In this document: piece by piece, positions 1,442 to 8,979 of the stretch
Position numbering within the stretch: the first letter of the stretch is position 1
Layout of the letters: every line of letters begins with the position of its first letter
Source of the DNA: Bacteroidota bacterium
GTDB taxonomy: Bacteria > Bacteroidota > Bacteroidia > Cytophagales > Cyclobacteriaceae
Direction: 5' to 3'
Assembly (NCBI GenBank): GCA_018266055.1
Contig: JAFDYT010000002.1
Span: 17,568 to 81,567 of the forward strand
Length of the DNA: 64,000 nt
Program-made: the position numbers and the translations under genes
The notes under the pieces: generated by a model
Told to the model about the DNA's origin: nothing
The model's database searches: none
Seen by the model: only the letters and a program-made list of their open reading frames with translations

Positions 1442-1993
1442 GTGAAAAAAGCCGTTGCCTTATTTTTAACCATTGTTTTCCTGTTCAATGTAATAGGATA
1501 CTATGGTATTTATCTGGCCATGGTGACCAAAGCACAATCGGCAATGAATCAAAAAATTGATAGCGAAAGCTATAGCGCCGATCAGACACTCACCATCAAA
1601 GTGCCTCTCAGCCTGCCTTATCCGGTGCAGCAAAATGAATATCAGAGTGTTCAAGGCGATTTTGAGCACGGCGGAGAGTTTTACAAACTCGTAAAGCAAA
1701 AGTATTCCAACGACACCTTATATATTGTCTGCCTTAAAAACACAGAAGAGAAGAAGGCTTTCAAGACTCTTAAAGAGTTTGTCAACCTTTCGACAGACCA
1801 ATCCAACGCGACGGGTAATCAAAACGCCAAAACCATCGTCAACATTATTAAAGACTACAATCCCGTTGTAGCTCAGATTCACTTCACTCAGCGTGAAGCC
1901 ATAGCGCTTGTGAAACCCGCTGCTTTCCATAGCAGCAAAATTCTTGTTCAGGACTTTCCTGAGTTTTCGCCTCCTCCGGAATCAGCCTGCTGA
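1442..1993 (+). CDS. membrane-anchored hypothetical protein
   Basis: This 183-residue protein starts at a GTG. A hydrophobic segment at about residues 4-27 could be a signal anchor and is followed by a polar domain of about 150 residues, presumably periplasmic. The C-terminus ends in a Pro-rich stretch (PEFSPPPES). I see no catalytic motif and do not recognise the family. It follows the mdh terminator by about 85 bases, so it probably has its own promoter. Amino-acid composition and codon use look coding, and the opposite-strand frames are shorter. Confidence 0.7.
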   Translation: MKKAVALFLTIVFLFNVIGYYGIYLAMVTKAQSAMNQKIDSESYSADQTLTIKVPLSLPYPVQQNEYQSVQGDFEHGGEFYKLVKQKYSNDTLYIVCLKNTEEKKAFKTLKEFVNLSTDQSNATGNQNAKTIVNIIKDYNPVVAQIHFTQREAIALVKPAAFHSSKILVQDFPEFSPPPESAC

Positions 1994-2167: not shown

Positions 2168-2285
2168 GGGGAAAAGTGAAAGCCCGTATTAGGGTCGGGC
2201 CAAACCAACACTCCCCATTTCGTGAATAGTTTAGGAAACAGATTACGTGGCACCAGTTCTTGTTAGGGTCAAGACTGGTGTCCAC
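2168..2285 (+). repeat. structured element, copy 1 (two hairpins with TTAGGGT loops)
   Basis: Copy 1 has two stem-loops. Hairpin A pairs GGGG..AGTG (2168-2178) with CACTCCCC (2209-2216) and holds an inner stem GCCCG/CGGGC (2182-2186 with 2196-2200) capped by TATTAGGGT. Hairpin B pairs GTGG (2247-2250) with CCAC (2282-2285) and CACCAGTTCTTG (2251-2262) with CAAGACTGGTG (2270-2280), capped by TTAGGGT. The strand shown is that of the downstream operon; the true strand is unknown. Confidence 0.7.
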
Positions 2286-2341: not shown

Positions 2342-2460
2342 GAAAGTGAACCAGCCAAAGCCCGTTAGGGTCGGGCCTGGCGGCGACACTTTCAAAGTAG
2401 TAAATAGTTTAGGGTAAAGATGCGTGGCGCCAGTTCTTGTTAGGGTCAAGACTGGCGTCA
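2342..2460 (+). repeat. structured element, copy 2, upstream of the AhpD-like operon
   Basis: Copy 2 repeats the two-hairpin layout of copy 1 with base changes that keep pairing. Hairpin A has the outer stem GAAAGTG (2342-2348) with CACTTTC (2387-2393) and the inner stem GCCCG/CGGGC capped by TTAGGGT. Hairpin B has CGCCAGTTCTTG (2428-2439) with CAAGACTGGCG (2447-2457), again capped by TTAGGGT. A shared stretch AATAGTTTAGG lies between the hairpins of each copy. The element ends 30 bases before the first start codon of the operon, as expected for a 5' leader, but a mobile or dispersed repeat is also possible. Confidence 0.7.
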
Positions 2461-2489: not shown

Positions 2490-3056
2490 ATGCCATACAT
2501 TCCATTAGAAGAACACCTTCCGGGCATCACCGGGCTACTTGAGTACCGAAGAGACACCGCTGAACCCATTCGGGAACTCACTCAATTTTTATTGCGCGGG
2601 CCGTCTTCGCTTACTGAAGGCGAACGTGAACTCATCGCTACGATCGTGTCGCACGGCAACCAATGCCGCTTCTGTACCGCGGCTCATACCGCCGCGGCCA
2701 ACGTGCTGCTCGGCGAATGCGAGACCACTGAAAAAATCAAGGAGAACATCGCTACAGCGCCCGTCAGTGAAAAAATGAAAGCGCTGCTCACCATCGCCTC
2801 ACAAGTGCAAAAGAGTGGAAAGGCGGTAACGACCGAATCGATTGCTGTGGCCAAAGCTGCGGGAGCAACCGACATCGAAATTCACGACACGGTGTTGATT
2901 GCGGCATTGTTCTGTCTGTACAATCGCTACGTGGATGGATTATCCACCGTAACACCCACCGATCCGAAATTTTATGAAGGGCTTGCATCGCGTATCGCGA
3001 AAGGATACCAGCGGTTGCCACAAGGGTACGATCATCTAAAGAAAAATATAATTTAA
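2490..3056 (+). CDS. AhpD/CMD-like peroxidase-related protein, paralogue A
   Basis: This 188-residue protein belongs to the carboxymuconolactone-decarboxylase/AhpD superfamily, close to the 'uncharacterized peroxidase-related enzyme' group. It keeps the AhpD active-site spacing: Glu47, Cys59, Cys62 and His66 (GERELIA, then CRFCTAAH), with 12 residues from Glu to the first Cys as in mycobacterial AhpD. Such proteins are all-helical and reduce disulfides or peroxides through the CxxC pair. The frame is open to 2424, but ATG 2490 begins the MPxIxL start shared by the paralogues. The end lies two bases before the next ATG. Paralogue A resembles E (GITGxLxYR) more than B, C or D. Confidence 0.88.
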   Translation: MPYIPLEEHLPGITGLLEYRRDTAEPIRELTQFLLRGPSSLTEGERELIATIVSHGNQCRFCTAAHTAAANVLLGECETTEKIKENIATAPVSEKMKALLTIASQVQKSGKAVTTESIAVAKAAGATDIEIHDTVLIAALFCLYNRYVDGLSTVTPTDPKFYEGLASRIAKGYQRLPQGYDHLKKNII

Positions 3057-3058
3057 TC

Positions 3059-3604
3059 ATGGCACACATCGCAGTACCCGAAGGAGTTCCCGGCATTCGC
3101 AGCCTGGTCATGTTTCGCCCCGAGTCGGGCCAGCATCTTTATGCATTAGCACAGACTTTACTCAGAGGCGAATCGCCATTGAGCCCTGCCGTGCGTGAAT
3201 TAATTGCTGCCTTTGTTTCATCTGGAAATGAATGTGGCTTTTGTCGCGATAGTCATGCTGCGGCGGCACGGTACTTATTCAAAGACAAAAAAGAAGTAGT
3301 CGATTTTGTATTGGATGAATATCATCATGCACCCATCAGCGAAAAGCTGAAGGCTCTTTTGAACATCGCCGGTAAGGTGAGGAAAAATGGAAAAGAAGTT
3401 TCGCCCGAGGATGTGGCGCGCGCGCGGGCGGAAGGCGCTGACGACCGCGAAATCCACGACACGGTTTTGATCGCTGCTACCTTCAGCATGTTTAATCGCT
3501 ACGTGGACGGTCTGGCCAGCTTCACCCCTACCGACCCCAAAGCTTACGAAGAAATGGGCGTGCGCCTGGGGGAGAAAGGATACGCGTTACCAAAGCCGCA
3601 GTAA
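3059..3604 (+). CDS. AhpD/CMD-like peroxidase-related protein, paralogue B
   Basis: This 181-residue paralogue belongs to the PGIR..FRPE subgroup. Active-site residues are Glu47, Cys59, Cys62 and His66 (RELIA, then CGFCRDSH). The C-terminal signature EIHDTVLIAA followed by FNRYVDGL, present in all five paralogues, is intact. It starts two bases after the stop of paralogue A, which implies translational coupling. The charged residues around the CxxC (Arg-Asp-Ser before His) differ from A, so the copies may have diverged in partner or substrate. I infer a cytosolic redox role; no substrate can be read from sequence. Confidence 0.88.
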   Translation: MAHIAVPEGVPGIRSLVMFRPESGQHLYALAQTLLRGESPLSPAVRELIAAFVSSGNECGFCRDSHAAAARYLFKDKKEVVDFVLDEYHHAPISEKLKALLNIAGKVRKNGKEVSPEDVARARAEGADDREIHDTVLIAATFSMFNRYVDGLASFTPTDPKAYEEMGVRLGEKGYALPKPQ

Positions 3605-3648
3605 GTTGTACGTGATAAGTCTAACGTCTAACAACCACCAACTAAAAT

Positions 3649-4197
3649 ATGGCACACATTAATTTACCAGAAGGTCTTCCCGGCATCCGGGGGCCCATGG
3701 CATTCCGACCAGAAACGGCAAAGCCTCTCAATCAGCTGGCGGAAGTTTTGCTTCGCAGTGAAAACTCGTTGACGCGAGGAGAACGCGAATTGATTGCGAC
3801 GTATGTGTCGTCGCTCAACGATTGTTTCTTCTGCCAGAACGCGCACGGAGGAATCGCCCAGCATTATCTGCAATGCGACATGAGTTATATCGATGCCGTG
3901 AAAAAGGATTTTCAGTCCACCTCTATTTCAGAGAAGCTCAAATCTCTTTTGGCGATCGCCGGAAGTGTTCAAAAAGGTGGTAAGCATGTAACACCAGAAC
4001 AGATTGCACAAGCTAAATTCTTTGGGGCAACGGATATTGAGATTCACGATACTGTTTTGATTGCTGCGGCCTTCTGTATGTTCAACCGCTATGTGGACGG
4101 CCTCGGTACATGGGCTCCTCAAGATCGCAATATCTATGTAGCACGTGGGCCACGACGCGCCGAAGAAGGATATATCAATTTTGATCTGTACAAGTAA
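3649..4197 (+). CDS. AhpD/CMD-like peroxidase-related protein, paralogue C
   Basis: This 182-residue paralogue of the PGIR..FRPE subgroup has Glu47, Cys59, Cys62 and His66 (CFFCQNAH). The EIHDTVLIAAAF..FNRYVDGL block is conserved. The 44-base gap from paralogue B contains TAAGTCTAACGTCTAAC-like short repeats similar in wording to those after ettA at 31.7 kb. Downstream is the MetE-like gene after 29 bases, so one transcript is likely. The C-terminus ends in YINFDLYK, unlike the other copies. Confidence 0.88.
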   Translation: MAHINLPEGLPGIRGPMAFRPETAKPLNQLAEVLLRSENSLTRGERELIATYVSSLNDCFFCQNAHGGIAQHYLQCDMSYIDAVKKDFQSTSISEKLKSLLAIAGSVQKGGKHVTPEQIAQAKFFGATDIEIHDTVLIAAAFCMFNRYVDGLGTWAPQDRNIYVARGPRRAEEGYINFDLYK

Positions 4198-4226
4198 TAC
4201 ATCTCATAAACCAAAACCAATTGATT

Positions 4227-5291
4227 ATGAAAATCGCAACGGAACCAGTTGGCAGCATCCCACGGCCGGGCTATCTCATCGAAGCGATGGGAGCATTTCA
4301 AAAGGGTCAAATCAAAGAACATGAATTGGAGCAGCTCACCGAGCAGGCCTTGAAAGAAACAATCAAATTGTTTGAGCAAACCGGATCACCCGTAATCTCC
4401 GATGGCGAGCAATCGAAACCAAGTTTTGTAACATACCCAATTCATGGCTCAAAATACCTCGCACCGGATGGTGTCGTGATTCCCTTTGCCGACGGGCACA
4501 CACGGCAGTTGCCGAAGCTTACGGCTGGACCTTTTCACTATCAAAGCTACGCCAGTCGCTATTTTGAAAAAGCTAAAACATTCACGCATTTGCCGTTGAA
4601 ACAAGCCGTCATATCTTCTTCAGCCATCAGCCTGTTGTATCCTCAAGAAGGAATTTCCGGATATTCAAGAGACAAGTTCATCAGTGATCTGGTCAACGAG
4701 GCTGAGGCAGACATCCGGAAATGTTTGAATGCCGGCGCGCACAACGTGCAGATTGATTTTACCGAAGCCCGACTGGCGATCAAACTTGATCCTTCAAAAG
4801 GGTTGCTGAAAATGTTTATTGACTTGAATAATCAGGTGCTTGACCGGTTTACAGCATCCGAGAAAAAAAGAATAGGCGTACACACGTGCCCTGGCGGTGA
4901 TCATGACTCCACGCATAGCGCAGACATCAGCTACACGGATTTGCTGCCGTTGTTATTTCAGCTCCATGCAGGAAATTTCTATCTGGAGTACGCGGCTGAA
5001 AAAGATAAGATCAACACCTTGAAGGCGATTCGCGAATTTTCTACGCCGGATCAAAAAATTTTTATTGGAGTAACCAACGTGCTAAGTCCACGAGTTGAAA
5101 CTCCAGAAGAAATATGTGACTTGATTCTGGAAGCGGCCGAATACATTCCTGCAGATCGCCTGGGCTCGACTGACGACTGCGGCTTCTCTCCTTTTGCCGA
5201 TGACGTTTCTACAGCACGTGAAACGGCATTTGCTAAAATAAGAGCGCGAGTGGAGGGAACAGCGATGGCCGAAAGGAAACTAGCCGTCTAA
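4227..5291 (+). CDS. MetE C-terminal-like (cobalamin-independent) zinc methyltransferase
   Basis: This 354-residue protein matches the catalytic C-terminal barrel of cobalamin-independent methionine synthase (UROD/MetE-like superfamily). All four zinc ligands can be placed: His219 and Cys221 (GVHTC), Glu254 (FYLEYA) and Cys318 (DDCGFSPF). It lacks the N-terminal MetE domain that helps hold the folate tail, so the methyl donor may not be methyl-folate and the acceptor thiol may not be homocysteine; this is inference. ATG 4227 is preferred over a TTG at 4221. It sits inside a run of AhpD-like genes rather than with methionine genes. Confidence 0.85.
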   Translation: MKIATEPVGSIPRPGYLIEAMGAFQKGQIKEHELEQLTEQALKETIKLFEQTGSPVISDGEQSKPSFVTYPIHGSKYLAPDGVVIPFADGHTRQLPKLTAGPFHYQSYASRYFEKAKTFTHLPLKQAVISSSAISLLYPQEGISGYSRDKFISDLVNEAEADIRKCLNAGAHNVQIDFTEARLAIKLDPSKGLLKMFIDLNNQVLDRFTASEKKRIGVHTCPGGDHDSTHSADISYTDLLPLLFQLHAGNFYLEYAAEKDKINTLKAIREFSTPDQKIFIGVTNVLSPRVETPEEICDLILEAAEYIPADRLGSTDDCGFSPFADDVSTARETAFAKIRARVEGTAMAERKLAV

Positions 5292-5323
5292 AAAATCCTA
5301 TACTTCGTAACTCGAAGAGTAAT

Positions 5324-5331
5324 TAACTTTA
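5324..5331 (+). promoter_or_regulatory. possible internal -7 element before the DUF3179 gene
   Basis: TAACTTTA matches seven of eight bases of the Bacteroidota -7 consensus TAnnTTTG, 18 bases before the next ATG. No clear TTG lies at the expected distance upstream. A short inverted repeat CTTCG..CGAAG precedes it. Weak. Confidence 0.3.
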
Positions 5332-5349
5332 GAAGACAAAAATTAACCC

Positions 5350-6495
5350 ATGAAAAAACTCTTTTACATCGGCATCGTCGGAATCATTCTTTTTGAATTA
5401 TTCAACGTGTATTTCATCATGCCCATGCCGGGAAGTCAGCGTATGCAAAGTATTGACGTAGCCTACTTTCTTTACAGCTATCGATGGTACTTCAGAATTG
5501 TATTCGGACTGATGATTGTTGCCGGAGTAAAGCCGTCCTTCCAAACCAAGCAAAAATGGGTGCCGGCGTTGGCGATCGTTGCAGTCCTAGTCGCGATCTA
5601 TATGTTCAACTTTGTGATGGCTGCCGATGCCATGTTCAAACAGCCTACACAACTCACTTTTCTTCCGAAAGAAAAAAACCTGCTGAGCGACAGCAGTATG
5701 GTGATCGGCGTAGAACATAACGGCGAAGTAAAAGCCTATCCCATTCGCTTTATTGTGTATCATCATCAGGTGCAGGACGTAATCGGAGGGAAGTCAGTGA
5801 TCGTAACTTATTGCAGTGTATGCCGCACCGGGCGCGTGTATGAGCCTTCAGTAAAAGGCAAACCTGAAAAATTCCGTCTGGTAGGTATGGACCATTTCAA
5901 CGCAATGTTTGAAGATGCAGCTACCAAAAGCTGGTGGCGTCAGGTGAACGGTGAAGCAATCACCGGTTCGCTGAAAGGAGAAGTACTACCAGAAGTTCCT
6001 TCGTTTCAGATTTCCTTAAGGAAATTATTCGAGTTGTATCCCAACGCGCTGGTGATGCAAATCGATCAGGAATCGAAGTCCCATTACGATTCACTTGGAA
6101 AATTTGAGCGAGGCAAAAGCAAAAGCGACCTTACCCGTACTGACAGTCTTTCGTGGAAAGACAAATCGTGGGTAGTCGGAATTCAGGTAGGATCAGCGAG
6201 CAAAGCTTACGACTGGAACAAACTCAAAGAAGTGCATGTCATCAACGATGAAGTGGGAGGCAAAGCTATCGTGCTGGTGCTGTCTGCCGACAATCAGAGT
6301 TTTGCAGCCTACGAGCGATCTGCCGGAGAATCTTTCGCTTTCCGCAATGACACGCTATTAGTCAGCACCTCACGGTATAATTTTTCCGGCGCTAATCTTT
6401 CAGGCTCCGGGTCTTCGTTAAAAAAAATCAACGCTTATCAGGAGTTCTGGCACAGTTGGAAGACATTCCACCCGAAGACAGATCAGTATAAGTAG
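5350..6495 (+). CDS. membrane protein with DUF3179 domain
   Basis: This 381-residue protein has three hydrophobic segments at about residues 4-24, 45-62 and 71-92, then a soluble DUF3179 domain from about residue 105. The DUF3179 hallmarks are visible: an AYP motif, a histidine pair (YHHQ) and VTYCSVCRTG, a CxxC-containing strand typical of the family. The biochemical function of DUF3179 is unknown to me. The membrane part suggests the domain is held at the outer face of the inner membrane. It lies 58 bases after the MetE-like gene and 25 bases before paralogue D. Confidence 0.82.
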   Translation: MKKLFYIGIVGIILFELFNVYFIMPMPGSQRMQSIDVAYFLYSYRWYFRIVFGLMIVAGVKPSFQTKQKWVPALAIVAVLVAIYMFNFVMAADAMFKQPTQLTFLPKEKNLLSDSSMVIGVEHNGEVKAYPIRFIVYHHQVQDVIGGKSVIVTYCSVCRTGRVYEPSVKGKPEKFRLVGMDHFNAMFEDAATKSWWRQVNGEAITGSLKGEVLPEVPSFQISLRKLFELYPNALVMQIDQESKSHYDSLGKFERGKSKSDLTRTDSLSWKDKSWVVGIQVGSASKAYDWNKLKEVHVINDEVGGKAIVLVLSADNQSFAAYERSAGESFAFRNDTLLVSTSRYNFSGANLSGSGSSLKKINAYQEFWHSWKTFHPKTDQYK

Positions 6496-6520
6496 TAAAC
6501 CAAAAAAATCAATTTCAGTT

Positions 6521-7081
6521 ATGCCACACATTGATCTTCCTAAAGAATATCCGGGCATCCGAAGCTTGTTTATGTTTCGACCAGAAACGGCTGCGCCATT
6601 GAATGCGCTCGTGCAAATTCTGCTACACAATCCTCATCCTTCGCTTACGCCGGGTGAGCGAGAACTTATCGCTACGCGCGTATCAAGTCTGAACAATTGC
6701 AAGTATTGCGCTACCATTCATGGAGCAATCGCCAAGCATCACCTCCACAATGGCGATGTAGTAGAAATTGTAAAAGTTGATCCTGACGCAGCGCCGATCA
6801 GTTCAAAACTAAAAGCACTGTTAAAAATCGCAGGAAAAGTACAGCTGAGCGGCAAAGAGGTTTCCTCCGCTGACGTTGACGCAGCCAGAAAGGAAGGCGC
6901 AACCGACCTGGAGATTCATGACACTGTGTTGATCGCTGCTGCCTTTTGCCTTTTCAATCGATACGTCGATGGCCTGGCTACATGGGCACCTGATGATCTG
7001 GATGTTTATGATCGCATGGGCAAGCAGCGGGCGGAAGAAGGCTACCTGACACCTCCTTTTAAAATTCAACCAAAGCCTTGA
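6521..7081 (+). CDS. AhpD/CMD-like peroxidase-related protein, paralogue D
   Basis: This 186-residue paralogue of the PGIR..FRPE subgroup carries one extra residue before the active site, giving Glu48, Cys60, Cys63 and His67 (CKYCATIH). The C-terminal FNRYVDGLATWAP block is close to paralogue C (GTWAP), so C and D are probably the most recent duplicates. It resumes the AhpD-like series after the MetE-like and DUF3179 genes, which shows that the paralogues were not simply amplified in tandem. Confidence 0.88.
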   Translation: MPHIDLPKEYPGIRSLFMFRPETAAPLNALVQILLHNPHPSLTPGERELIATRVSSLNNCKYCATIHGAIAKHHLHNGDVVEIVKVDPDAAPISSKLKALLKIAGKVQLSGKEVSSADVDAARKEGATDLEIHDTVLIAAAFCLFNRYVDGLATWAPDDLDVYDRMGKQRAEEGYLTPPFKIQPKP

Positions 7082-7107
7082 GCACTAACAAACCAAACTA
7101 AATAAGT

Positions 7108-7668
7108 ATGCCACATATTCCTTTGGATGCGAACCTGCCGGGGATCACAGGTATTCTCAACTACAGAACAGACACGGCTTTGCCAATCCGTGAGCTAACA
7201 CACTTGCTTCTGCGGGGCGAATCTACCTTAACACGCGCTGAACGCGAGTTGATTGCAACGGTAGTGTCGTACGGAAACGAATGCAAATTTTGCACCGCTG
7301 CCCATGCTGCCACCGCAGATTTGCTACTGGGTGAAAAAGAGACTGTTGAAAAAGTTAAACACAACCACGAGCACGCGCCCGTGAGCACCAAGATGAAAAC
7401 CTTACTGACCATTGCACGCGCGGTTCAGGTGAGCGGAAAAAATGTAACAACAGAAATGATTCAGCACGCCAAGGCTGAAGGTGCAAGCGATCTTGAAATT
7501 CACGACACCGTGCTAATCGCTGCGTTGTTTTCACTGTACAATCGACTTGTCGATGGATTAGCCAGCATTACACCAACAGAGCCTGCATTCTATGATCGTC
7601 TGGCCCACATTCTGGTGGAAAAGGGTTACCTCCCTTCCGAGAATCGATACGCTTCATTAAATTCATGA
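7108..7668 (+). CDS. AhpD/CMD-like peroxidase-related protein, paralogue E
   Basis: This 186-residue paralogue has Glu47, Cys59, Cys62 and His66 (CKFCTAAH). It shares GITGxLxYR, PIREL and the same CxFCTAAH box with paralogue A rather than its neighbour D. The cluster is therefore bracketed by the A/E subtype with B, C and D inside. Two subtypes could form hetero-oligomers, since AhpD works as a trimer; this is inference. It begins 26 bases after paralogue D. Confidence 0.88.
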   Translation: MPHIPLDANLPGITGILNYRTDTALPIRELTHLLLRGESTLTRAERELIATVVSYGNECKFCTAAHAATADLLLGEKETVEKVKHNHEHAPVSTKMKTLLTIARAVQVSGKNVTTEMIQHAKAEGASDLEIHDTVLIAALFSLYNRLVDGLASITPTEPAFYDRLAHILVEKGYLPSENRYASLNS

Positions 7669-7715
7669 CAATATTATCCTCAACCTAAAAAACTAAACAT
7701 CTAAATCAAAAAACA

Positions 7716-7979
7716 ATGGCTACACAAAACGATGCGGTTATCAGCAACCAAAAAGTAATCAAAAACAATCAAGGTGCTATTCTGAAAAATCAGGGCGACT
7801 TGAAATCCAATCAAAAAGTGATTATCGACAATCAAAAATCACTCAAGCAAAACCAGCAGTCAATTCTTGCAAATCAAAAAGCAATCATCAACAACCAGAA
7901 CAACATTCTGAAAAACCAGAAAACACTAGACTTGATCGTAAAGAATCAGCAAGCGATTCTTAAATTGCTGAAAAAATAA
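7716..7979 (+). CDS. coiled-coil protein of IxxNQ heptads
   Basis: This 87-residue protein is almost entirely a heptad repeat with the pattern NQxx[IL]xx. Placing Ile/Leu at core position a puts Asn at core position d in nine layers (Asn18, 25, 32, 39, 46, 53, 60, 67 and 77). Asn at d after Ile at a ('N@d' layers) is known from trimeric autotransporter stalks, where the Asn side chains hold an anion. One ten-residue spacing at 67-76 breaks the heptads, like a stammer. There is no signal peptide or membrane segment. DNA is repetitive with a 21-base period. It lies 47 bases after paralogue E. Confidence 0.8.
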   Translation: MATQNDAVISNQKVIKNNQGAILKNQGDLKSNQKVIIDNQKSLKQNQQSILANQKAIINNQNNILKNQKTLDLIVKNQQAILKLLKK

Positions 7980-7998
7980 CAAGCCCATTTTCCTTAAG

Positions 7999-8979
7999 AT
8001 GTCCGGCAAGAAAATACCAAAGCTTTATTTCTCGTTTCTGATAATTGTTTTGATCTGCTGGACATCTTACATGGTATCCACGCAGAGTTTTGGTCTTTAC
8101 TTAAAGCACTATTACGCTGTGCTCACGATGGTGTTCGGTTCATTCATCGCAGGCTCAAGCCCCGAAGGAAGTGCCGCCATCGCGTATCCCATCTTCACGT
8201 TATTGTTAAAGATTTCGCCGGCCATCGCGCGTAATTTTGCTTTCGCTATTCAAAGCATTGGCATGACGTCGGCCAGTCTTTTGATCCTTGGGCTTGCTAT
8301 TAAAGTCGAGTGGAATTATATCCGTTACGTCACCATCGGTGGTATATTCGGTTTAGTCTTTGGCACCTACTACATCGTGCCGTTGATCTCTCCTCCGCTC
8401 GCTAAGCTCTTTTTCGTTTCTCTGTGGCTAAGCTTTGGTCTTGTGCTGTGGTTCGAAAATCGAAAACCCAAACGGGAAGTGTTTGACTCCATTCAGCACT
8501 TTGCGCAATCTGACATGGTGCGCCTGCTTTTCTTTGGTTTAATCGGCGGAATGATTTCCTCCATTTTCGGAACCGGCATTAATATCTTCACCTTTTGCCT
8601 GATGACGATCTATTACCGCATCAATGAAAAAGTAGCTGTACCGTCTTCTGTGATCATCATGACCATCGAAACACTGCTCGGATTTTTCTTGCATGCAGGC
8701 GTAATCGGCGACTTTCAATTGCAGTCGTTCGAGATGTGGCTGGTGTGTGTGCCGGTGGTGGCTGTGTTTGCACCGTTAGGCGCATTCGTCATCAGCAAGG
8801 TGCCGCGCAAAGGCGTCGCCGCATTTCTTTACCTTATCCTGGTGGTGCAATTTTTCGGCGCGATGATCGTGATTAAACCCAACCTAATCCAGTTAAGCAT
8901 GTGCCTTGGCGTCCTGGTGATGGGTCTTTCCACCTTCTTCTATCTTTCTCGCATGCAGCGCCAAAGTGTGCAAGGCTAA
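7999..8979 (+). CDS. TauE/SafE-family membrane permease
   Basis: This 326-residue integral membrane protein has about eight to nine hydrophobic segments. The two pseudo-repeats begin with glycine-rich helices (FGSFIAGSSPEGSAA at about 48-62 and GLIGGMISSIFGTG at about 180-193), as in the TauE/SafE group of sulfite, sulfoacetate or other anion exporters. The substrate cannot be read from sequence. It begins 19 bases after the coiled-coil gene and closes the operon. Its last four bases overlap the convergent methyltransferase gene. Confidence 0.8.
   Translation: MSGKKIPKLYFSFLIIVLICWTSYMVSTQSFGLYLKHYYAVLTMVFGSFIAGSSPEGSAAIAYPIFTLLLKISPAIARNFAFAIQSIGMTSASLLILGLAIKVEWNYIRYVTIGGIFGLVFGTYYIVPLISPPLAKLFFVSLWLSFGLVLWFENRKPKREVFDSIQHFAQSDMVRLLFFGLIGGMISSIFGTGINIFTFCLMTIYYRINEKVAVPSSVIIMTIETLLGFFLHAGVIGDFQLQSFEMWLVCVPVVAVFAPLGAFVISKVPRKGVAAFLYLILVVQFFGAMIVIKPNLIQLSMCLGVLVMGLSTFFYLSRMQRQSVQG

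Follow-up and report, generated by a model that had tools for sequence, protein, structure and literature searches.

A remodelled version of a recurrent Bacteroidota operon with diverged AhpD-type paralogues and a possible role in small-molecule uptake and conversion

What purpose is served by a gene cluster that joins five AhpD-like paralogues to a MetE-like enzyme, a DUF3179 protein, a coiled coil and a permease? This combination lies within a 64,000-nucleotide stretch of a Bacteroidota genome (Cyclobacteriaceae; GenBank assembly GCA_018266055.1, contig JAFDYT010000002.1, positions 17,568 to 81,567; hereafter the window), where a first-pass annotation, made from the letters of the DNA, had described nine genes and proposed a thiol/sulfur or peroxide pathway. 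The comparison with other genomes described here shows the cluster to be a variant of a gene layout that recurs in Bacteroidota, a system larger and more widespread than the single window reveals, in which transporters are the most frequent partners. The reading to which we tentatively give preference is that of a remodelled copy of a widespread uptake-and-conversion operon for a small molecule, although the mechanism itself is our inference. No description of this gene system was found in the open literature searched, which left most subscription papers outside its coverage, and the initial statement that no described system has this content stands to that extent.

The cluster comprises nine plus-strand open reading frames (2490-8979), with the start ATG of CMD-A at 2490 and that of the MetE-like gene at 4227. 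The gaps between them measure, in order, 2, 44, 29, 58, 25, 26, 47 and 19 bases. A tenth gene, UP, belongs to the cluster as well, so that it starts one gene earlier than 2490. The features are:

1442-1993, plus strand: UP, small protein with a helix at its N-terminus, probably a membrane anchor, and a Pro-rich tail; counterparts in 50 of the 80 related loci
2182-2282, plus strand: hairpin pair 1, TTAGGGT loops
2360-2459, plus strand: hairpin pair 2, TTAGGGT loops, tandem copy of pair 1
2490-3056, plus strand: CMD-A, peroxidase-related enzyme (TIGR01926)
3059-3604, plus strand: CMD-B
3649-4197, plus strand: CMD-C
4227-5291, plus strand: MetE-like enzyme (Meth_synt_2) with zinc ligands and an altered QxDEP stretch
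5350-6495, plus strand: DUF3179 protein, N-terminal helices followed by beta domains; residues 124-223 with a predicted Rieske-like fold
6521-7081, plus strand: CMD-D
7108-7668, plus strand: CMD-E (A-type)
7716-7979, plus strand: NQ, coiled coil of [I/V/L]xxNQxx heptads
7999-8979, plus strand: TauE/SafE family permease

The co-directional run with its short gaps (2-58 bases) was borne out by the open reading frames and by the Pfam families, namely CMD (PF02627, E 3.7e-10 or better in all five paralogues), Meth_synt_2 (PF01717, 3.4e-14), DUF3179 (PF11376, 1.8e-54) and TauE (PF01925, 8e-19; 68.7 bits against a cut-off of 32.6). The Pfam scan of the cluster proteins assigned no family to the NQ coil. 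Upstream, a terminator-like hairpin of 13 pairs (1324-1353) follows a dehydrogenase-like gene; the remaining plus-strand matches of this kind lie within genes, and the overall total of 11 is close to the 8.9 (standard deviation 3.1) of shuffles. Promoter-like matches were not above shuffles (10 versus 11.4), and no Rfam family reached its gathering score within the window. Downstream, the gene after TauE is convergent and overlaps the TauE stop.

CMD-D, used as a query against 58 related genomes, had matches in 25, of which 12 (the window's own included) were below E 1e-40, and 18 regions from related genomes were read. Furthermore, a genome collection was scanned with nine CMD-C orthologues, which yielded at least 558 relatives; the best 80 loci were analysed by single-linkage clustering of their 1128 open reading frames. 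As many contigs are cut, the resulting counts are minima, and several loci belong to one genus. CMD genes occurred in all 80 loci, MFS carriers in 67, UP in 50, DUF3179 in 35, TonB receptors in 32 and 20, SusD in 19 and the MetE-like gene in 14. Other clusters reached at most seven loci (an outer-membrane-type protein, PAP2, CRTAC1-type FG-GAP proteins, a trehalase in six and an esterase in four). The usual order across the related Bacteroidota loci is UP - CMD-A - TonB receptor - MFS - CMD-B - CMD-C, with optional extras, and named cultured hosts include Ohtaekwangia koreensis, Flavihumibacter petaseus and Mucilaginibacter and Dyadobacter species. The recurrence of the same genes together in many genomes rules out a chance cluster and supports the gene unit as real. 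Lack of conservation in other genomes had been named beforehand as grounds for rejecting the unit: the core does recur, but the nine-gene set as a whole is not conserved, its exact composition varying among relatives.

In a phylum-wide sample of 395 genomes, CMD-C-like genes were present in 26 (E 1e-25). One region was taken from each of 12 of the 26; an MFS gene stood beside the CMDs in six, a TonB receptor was found in five and CRTAC1-type genes (25-31% identity) in three. The nearest solved relatives of the MFS partner are SLC22 organic-anion carriers, and among NCBIfam models it scores best, though below cut-off, with the aromatic acid/H+ symport family. Because MFS carriers, UP and TonB receptors are the commonest partners elsewhere, we favour import over the thiol/sulfur or peroxide pathway that was proposed at first, both branches of which are weighed below. 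With the SusC/SusD-type uptake loci of Bacteroidota the related loci share TonB receptors and sometimes SusD (19/80); they differ in that CMD enzymes replace the glycosidase set, and in the window copy both receptor and SusD are absent.

According to its open reading frames and Pfam matches, the window unit is devoid of TonB receptor, SusD, MFS and CRTAC1-type genes; CMD-A and CMD-B are 2 bases apart where relatives carry receptor and MFS. One relative, G001, keeps the flanks of the window (dehydrogenase, methyltransferase-like) and carries between them DUF3179-UP-A-receptor-MFS-B-C. In another, G003 (71-88% identity per protein), the end of an MFS gene precedes B, and pieces of a CRTAC1-type gene lie between the MetE-like and DUF3179 genes (MFS and CRTAC1 fragments named by eye). 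On grounds of parsimony, the absence of receptor, MFS and CRTAC1-type genes from the window copy probably reflects loss. A relocation of receptor and MFS genes appears unlikely, as the MFS/TonB receptor homologues elsewhere in the window genome (56% identity at C17; 43% at C8) resemble other systems; the one at C17 adjoins a glycosidase-like gene (by eye).

All five CMD proteins passed the cut-off of TIGR01926 'peroxidase-related enzyme' (83.5 to 96.6 bits against 81.8) and contain the AhpD-type site E-x11-CxxC-x3-H intact, with E47, C59, C62 and H66 invariant, just as the first-pass annotation had it. AhpD proper (TIGR00777) was rejected as an assignment: only CMD-B was listed, with 12.7 bits against a cut-off of 191.95. 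The site is common to the AhpD/TIGR01926 enzymes of known structure (PDB 2oyo, 2pfx, 6k40, 3c1l, 2prr); what differs here is the presence of several paralogues in one operon with transporters. Moreover, H132, D133 and D149 are kept in 275, 277 and 277 of 277 CMD rows but were not seen in the 2oyo alignment. The underlying tree had 278 rows: besides the five proteins of the window and one outgroup fragment, it took in those CMDs of the 80 loci and 18 regions that have at least 150 residues, with at least three contigs entered twice. E47, C62 and H66 occur in all 277 CMD rows and C59 in 270, so the catalytic residues are retained in every CMD group. Threonine takes the place of C59 in seven rows (2 of 70 in the A/E clade, 5 of 62 in the B clade).

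The tree resolved an A/E clade (70 tips, support 0.935), a B clade (62 tips, 0.863) and a C clade (70 tips, 0.847) and joined B, C and D (200 tips, 0.933), in agreement with the two subtypes, A/E and B/C/D, distinguished initially. Some inner nodes are weak, and the node tying E directly to the A orthologues has a support of 0.185. A, B and C are orthologous groups whose position within the operon is fixed. Fifteen alignment columns discriminate between them, six of these at positions 14-31 (position 28, for example, is R, Y and N, respectively), which would be compatible with group-specific interfaces without proving them. Since A, B and C form separate clades in a conserved order, the earlier proposal of hetero-oligomers is a sensible one, and CMD-A, -B and -C may assemble in this way.

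The TIGR01926 name and the AhpD-type site would also suit a defence against peroxides or oxidants, in which the CMDs would act on organic hydroperoxides or oxidised thiols as thiol peroxidases or reductases, while the remaining genes would be accessory and import incidental. Pointing in the same direction are the PAP2 proteins of some loci, which carry a haloperoxidase-like motif, and the occurrence of DUF3179 and CMD-like proteins as selenoproteins, described in two papers (PMC9312934, PMC13188914). However, transporters are the commonest partners, three diverged paralogues in conserved order exceed the needs of a scavenger, and the recurring clusters of the 80 loci contain no AhpC-like partner. 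We therefore regard such a defence as unlikely.

For the preferred uptake-and-conversion operon, we infer import of a small organic anion followed by cytoplasmic thiol-redox processing. A TonB-dependent receptor (with or without SusD), the membrane-anchored UP and other exported proteins would take up the small molecule, and an MFS symporter related to organic-anion/aromatic-acid carriers would transfer it into the cytoplasm. A CMD-A/-B/-C hetero-oligomer could then perform redox chemistry at the Glu/CxxC/His site, assisted, where present, by the MetE-like protein as a putative zinc thiol alkyltransferase, while DUF3179 might serve as an electron or thiol relay at the outer face of the membrane. 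The locus of the window species has paralogues D and E and would have lost the receptor and the MFS carrier; TauE together with the N@d coil may provide an anion-transport step there, perhaps product export.

Several points weigh against this proposal. The window unit has neither receptor nor MFS carrier, and the homologues elsewhere in its genome resemble other systems. Five of the 12 phylum-sample loci consist of a single CMD and no recognised transport genes. The frequencies come from the 80 best among at least 558 CMD-C relatives, several of these loci being from one genus, and may not extend to the remainder. Finally, the hetero-oligomers are a prediction from sequence. The operon is a recurrent one with three diverged AhpD-type paralogues, at least 558 CMD-C relatives and a layout examined in 80 loci and further genomes; it makes the function of TIGR01926 enzymes, obligate hetero-oligomers, the nature of DUF3179 and the role of an N@d coil beside TauE accessible to testing.

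The MetE-like protein, with close homologues (E < 1e-140) in 5 of the 58 related genomes, carries His, Cys, Glu and Cys at the zinc-ligand positions of MetE (H219, C221 and C318 in 15 of 15 sequences, E254 in 13 of 15). In its sequence-inferred fold and in these ligands it resembles MetE/core-MetE enzymes (PDB 3rpd, 1ypx), whereas the QxDEP of the 3rpd alignment is replaced by QxDFTE in all 15. MetE proper was rejected, as every NCBIfam methionine synthase cut-off was missed (best 76.7 versus 406 bits) and QxDEP is changed; the protein may be a thiol alkyltransferase with a different acceptor. The zinc site and the TauE family membership of the permease would also fit organosulfur catabolism, with degradation of a thiol or sulfonate, transfer of an alkyl group on a thiol by the MetE-like enzyme and export of sulfite by TauE. 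A parallel exists in Advenella, where an AhpD-domain gene lies beside a 3-mercaptopropionate dioxygenase and TauE is named a sulfite exporter, according to PMC5373536. Yet most related loci do without TauE, and no sulfur oxygenase or desulfinase appears among the recurring clusters of the 80 loci, which leaves this route improbable in our estimate.

For residues 124-223 of DUF3179, the structure model suggests a possible Rieske-like fold. A true Rieske protein was excluded, since the CxH...CxxH ligands are found in none of 30 sequences; YHH and CxxC are present in all 30. In many genomes of the same genus (L184-L202), DUF3179 stands beside genes resembling sugar enzymes (glycosidase-like and dehydrogenase-like by eye) and not beside CMDs. 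UP was modelled with a mean pLDDT of 80 as four strands and a helix that spans residues 2-40; the searches returned no Pfam family above cut-off, no notable sequence relative and no fold match at E 0.001.

The NQ protein (87 residues) contains ten [I/V/L]xxNxxx heptads, of which nine share a register and the remaining one follows a break of three residues; the first residue is I or V in eight and L in two. Among the 58 relatives, strong matches without stops (E 1e-11 or better) were found in G000, G003 and G006, each beside the CMD operon; in G006 (L026 2751-3122) NQ lies between the DUF3179 and TauE genes on the opposite strand. NQ also occurs near CMDs in L093 and L123, the latter a record labelled Terriglobia whose binning is uncertain. 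Five of the 395 phylum-sample genomes passed E 1e-8, the only strong match besides the window's own being G304 (L158 7641-14761), with UP-NQ-TauE-MetE-like-UP and a 748-residue protein, CRTAC1-type by eye.

NQ and TauE might constitute a module of their own that is merely located behind the CMD operon, a possibility to which we give appreciable weight without adopting it. An N@d-type coil stands directly upstream (by eye) in 7 of 23 TauE-subtype loci, five of these seven without a CMD in the DNA fetched; the NQ-TauE pair of G304 is ~410 kb from that genome's own CMD cluster, and NQ in G006 is on the other strand. On the other hand, NQ lies near CMDs in L093 and L123 and near UP and MetE-like genes in G304. 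TauE-subtype (23) and CMD (26) genes also co-occur in 14 of the 395 genomes; the Fisher test gives p 3e-13 with no correction for relatedness, and two families account for 12 of the 14.

The same heptads invite a halide-linked reading, in which NQ would form a trimer with halide ions lined up inside it and would sense or gate them for TauE, while exported haloperoxidase-like PAP2 enzymes (in relatives) and cytoplasmic CMD hetero-oligomers would make and remove halogenated or hypohalous products. This would join the N@d heptads, the coil-TauE pairs, the co-occurrence of TauE and CMD genes, and the PAP2 motif found next to CMD or coil-TauE genes. The motif in question is a loose haloperoxidase-like one; of the PAP2 proteins encoded close to CMD or coil-TauE genes, all 7 of one cluster and 2 of the 6 in a second cluster matched it (L054, L058, L059, L066, L072, L116 and L120; L034 3388-4953 and L159 5881-7431). 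No paper that brings vanadium haloperoxidase and CMD together was found in the open literature searched. In PMC12933892, [I/V]xxNxxx heptads are halide sites in trimeric coiled coils (Asn@d); NQ shares them but is built almost wholly of such heptads. As engineered trimers with two Asn@d layers did not form in solution according to the same source, a simple NQ trimer is disfavoured. We consider the halide-linked reading very doubtful.

In the window, the gap between UP and CMD-A contains two tandem pairs of hairpins, all four with a TTAGGGT loop. Genome-wide, the loop word GTTAGGGTC shows no enrichment (14 + 9 versus 17 + 20 for the control), and the 11 TTAGGGT hairpins counted across the compared loci are not above permuted words (mean 9.5, maximum 18), so that the case for the hairpins rests on position and on recurrence in four genomes. 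G006, G015, G018 and G032 have no such hairpins before A. G001, G002 and G033, of the same genus, each have one TTAGGGT-loop hairpin pair at the same place with differing stem sequences (L021, L022 and L033, between UP and CMD-A). Stems of at least five pairs flank 8 of 11 TTAGGGT words in the UP-A gaps but 16 of 87 in the rest of these loci, and it is plausible that the hairpins are a cis-regulatory RNA of this subclade.

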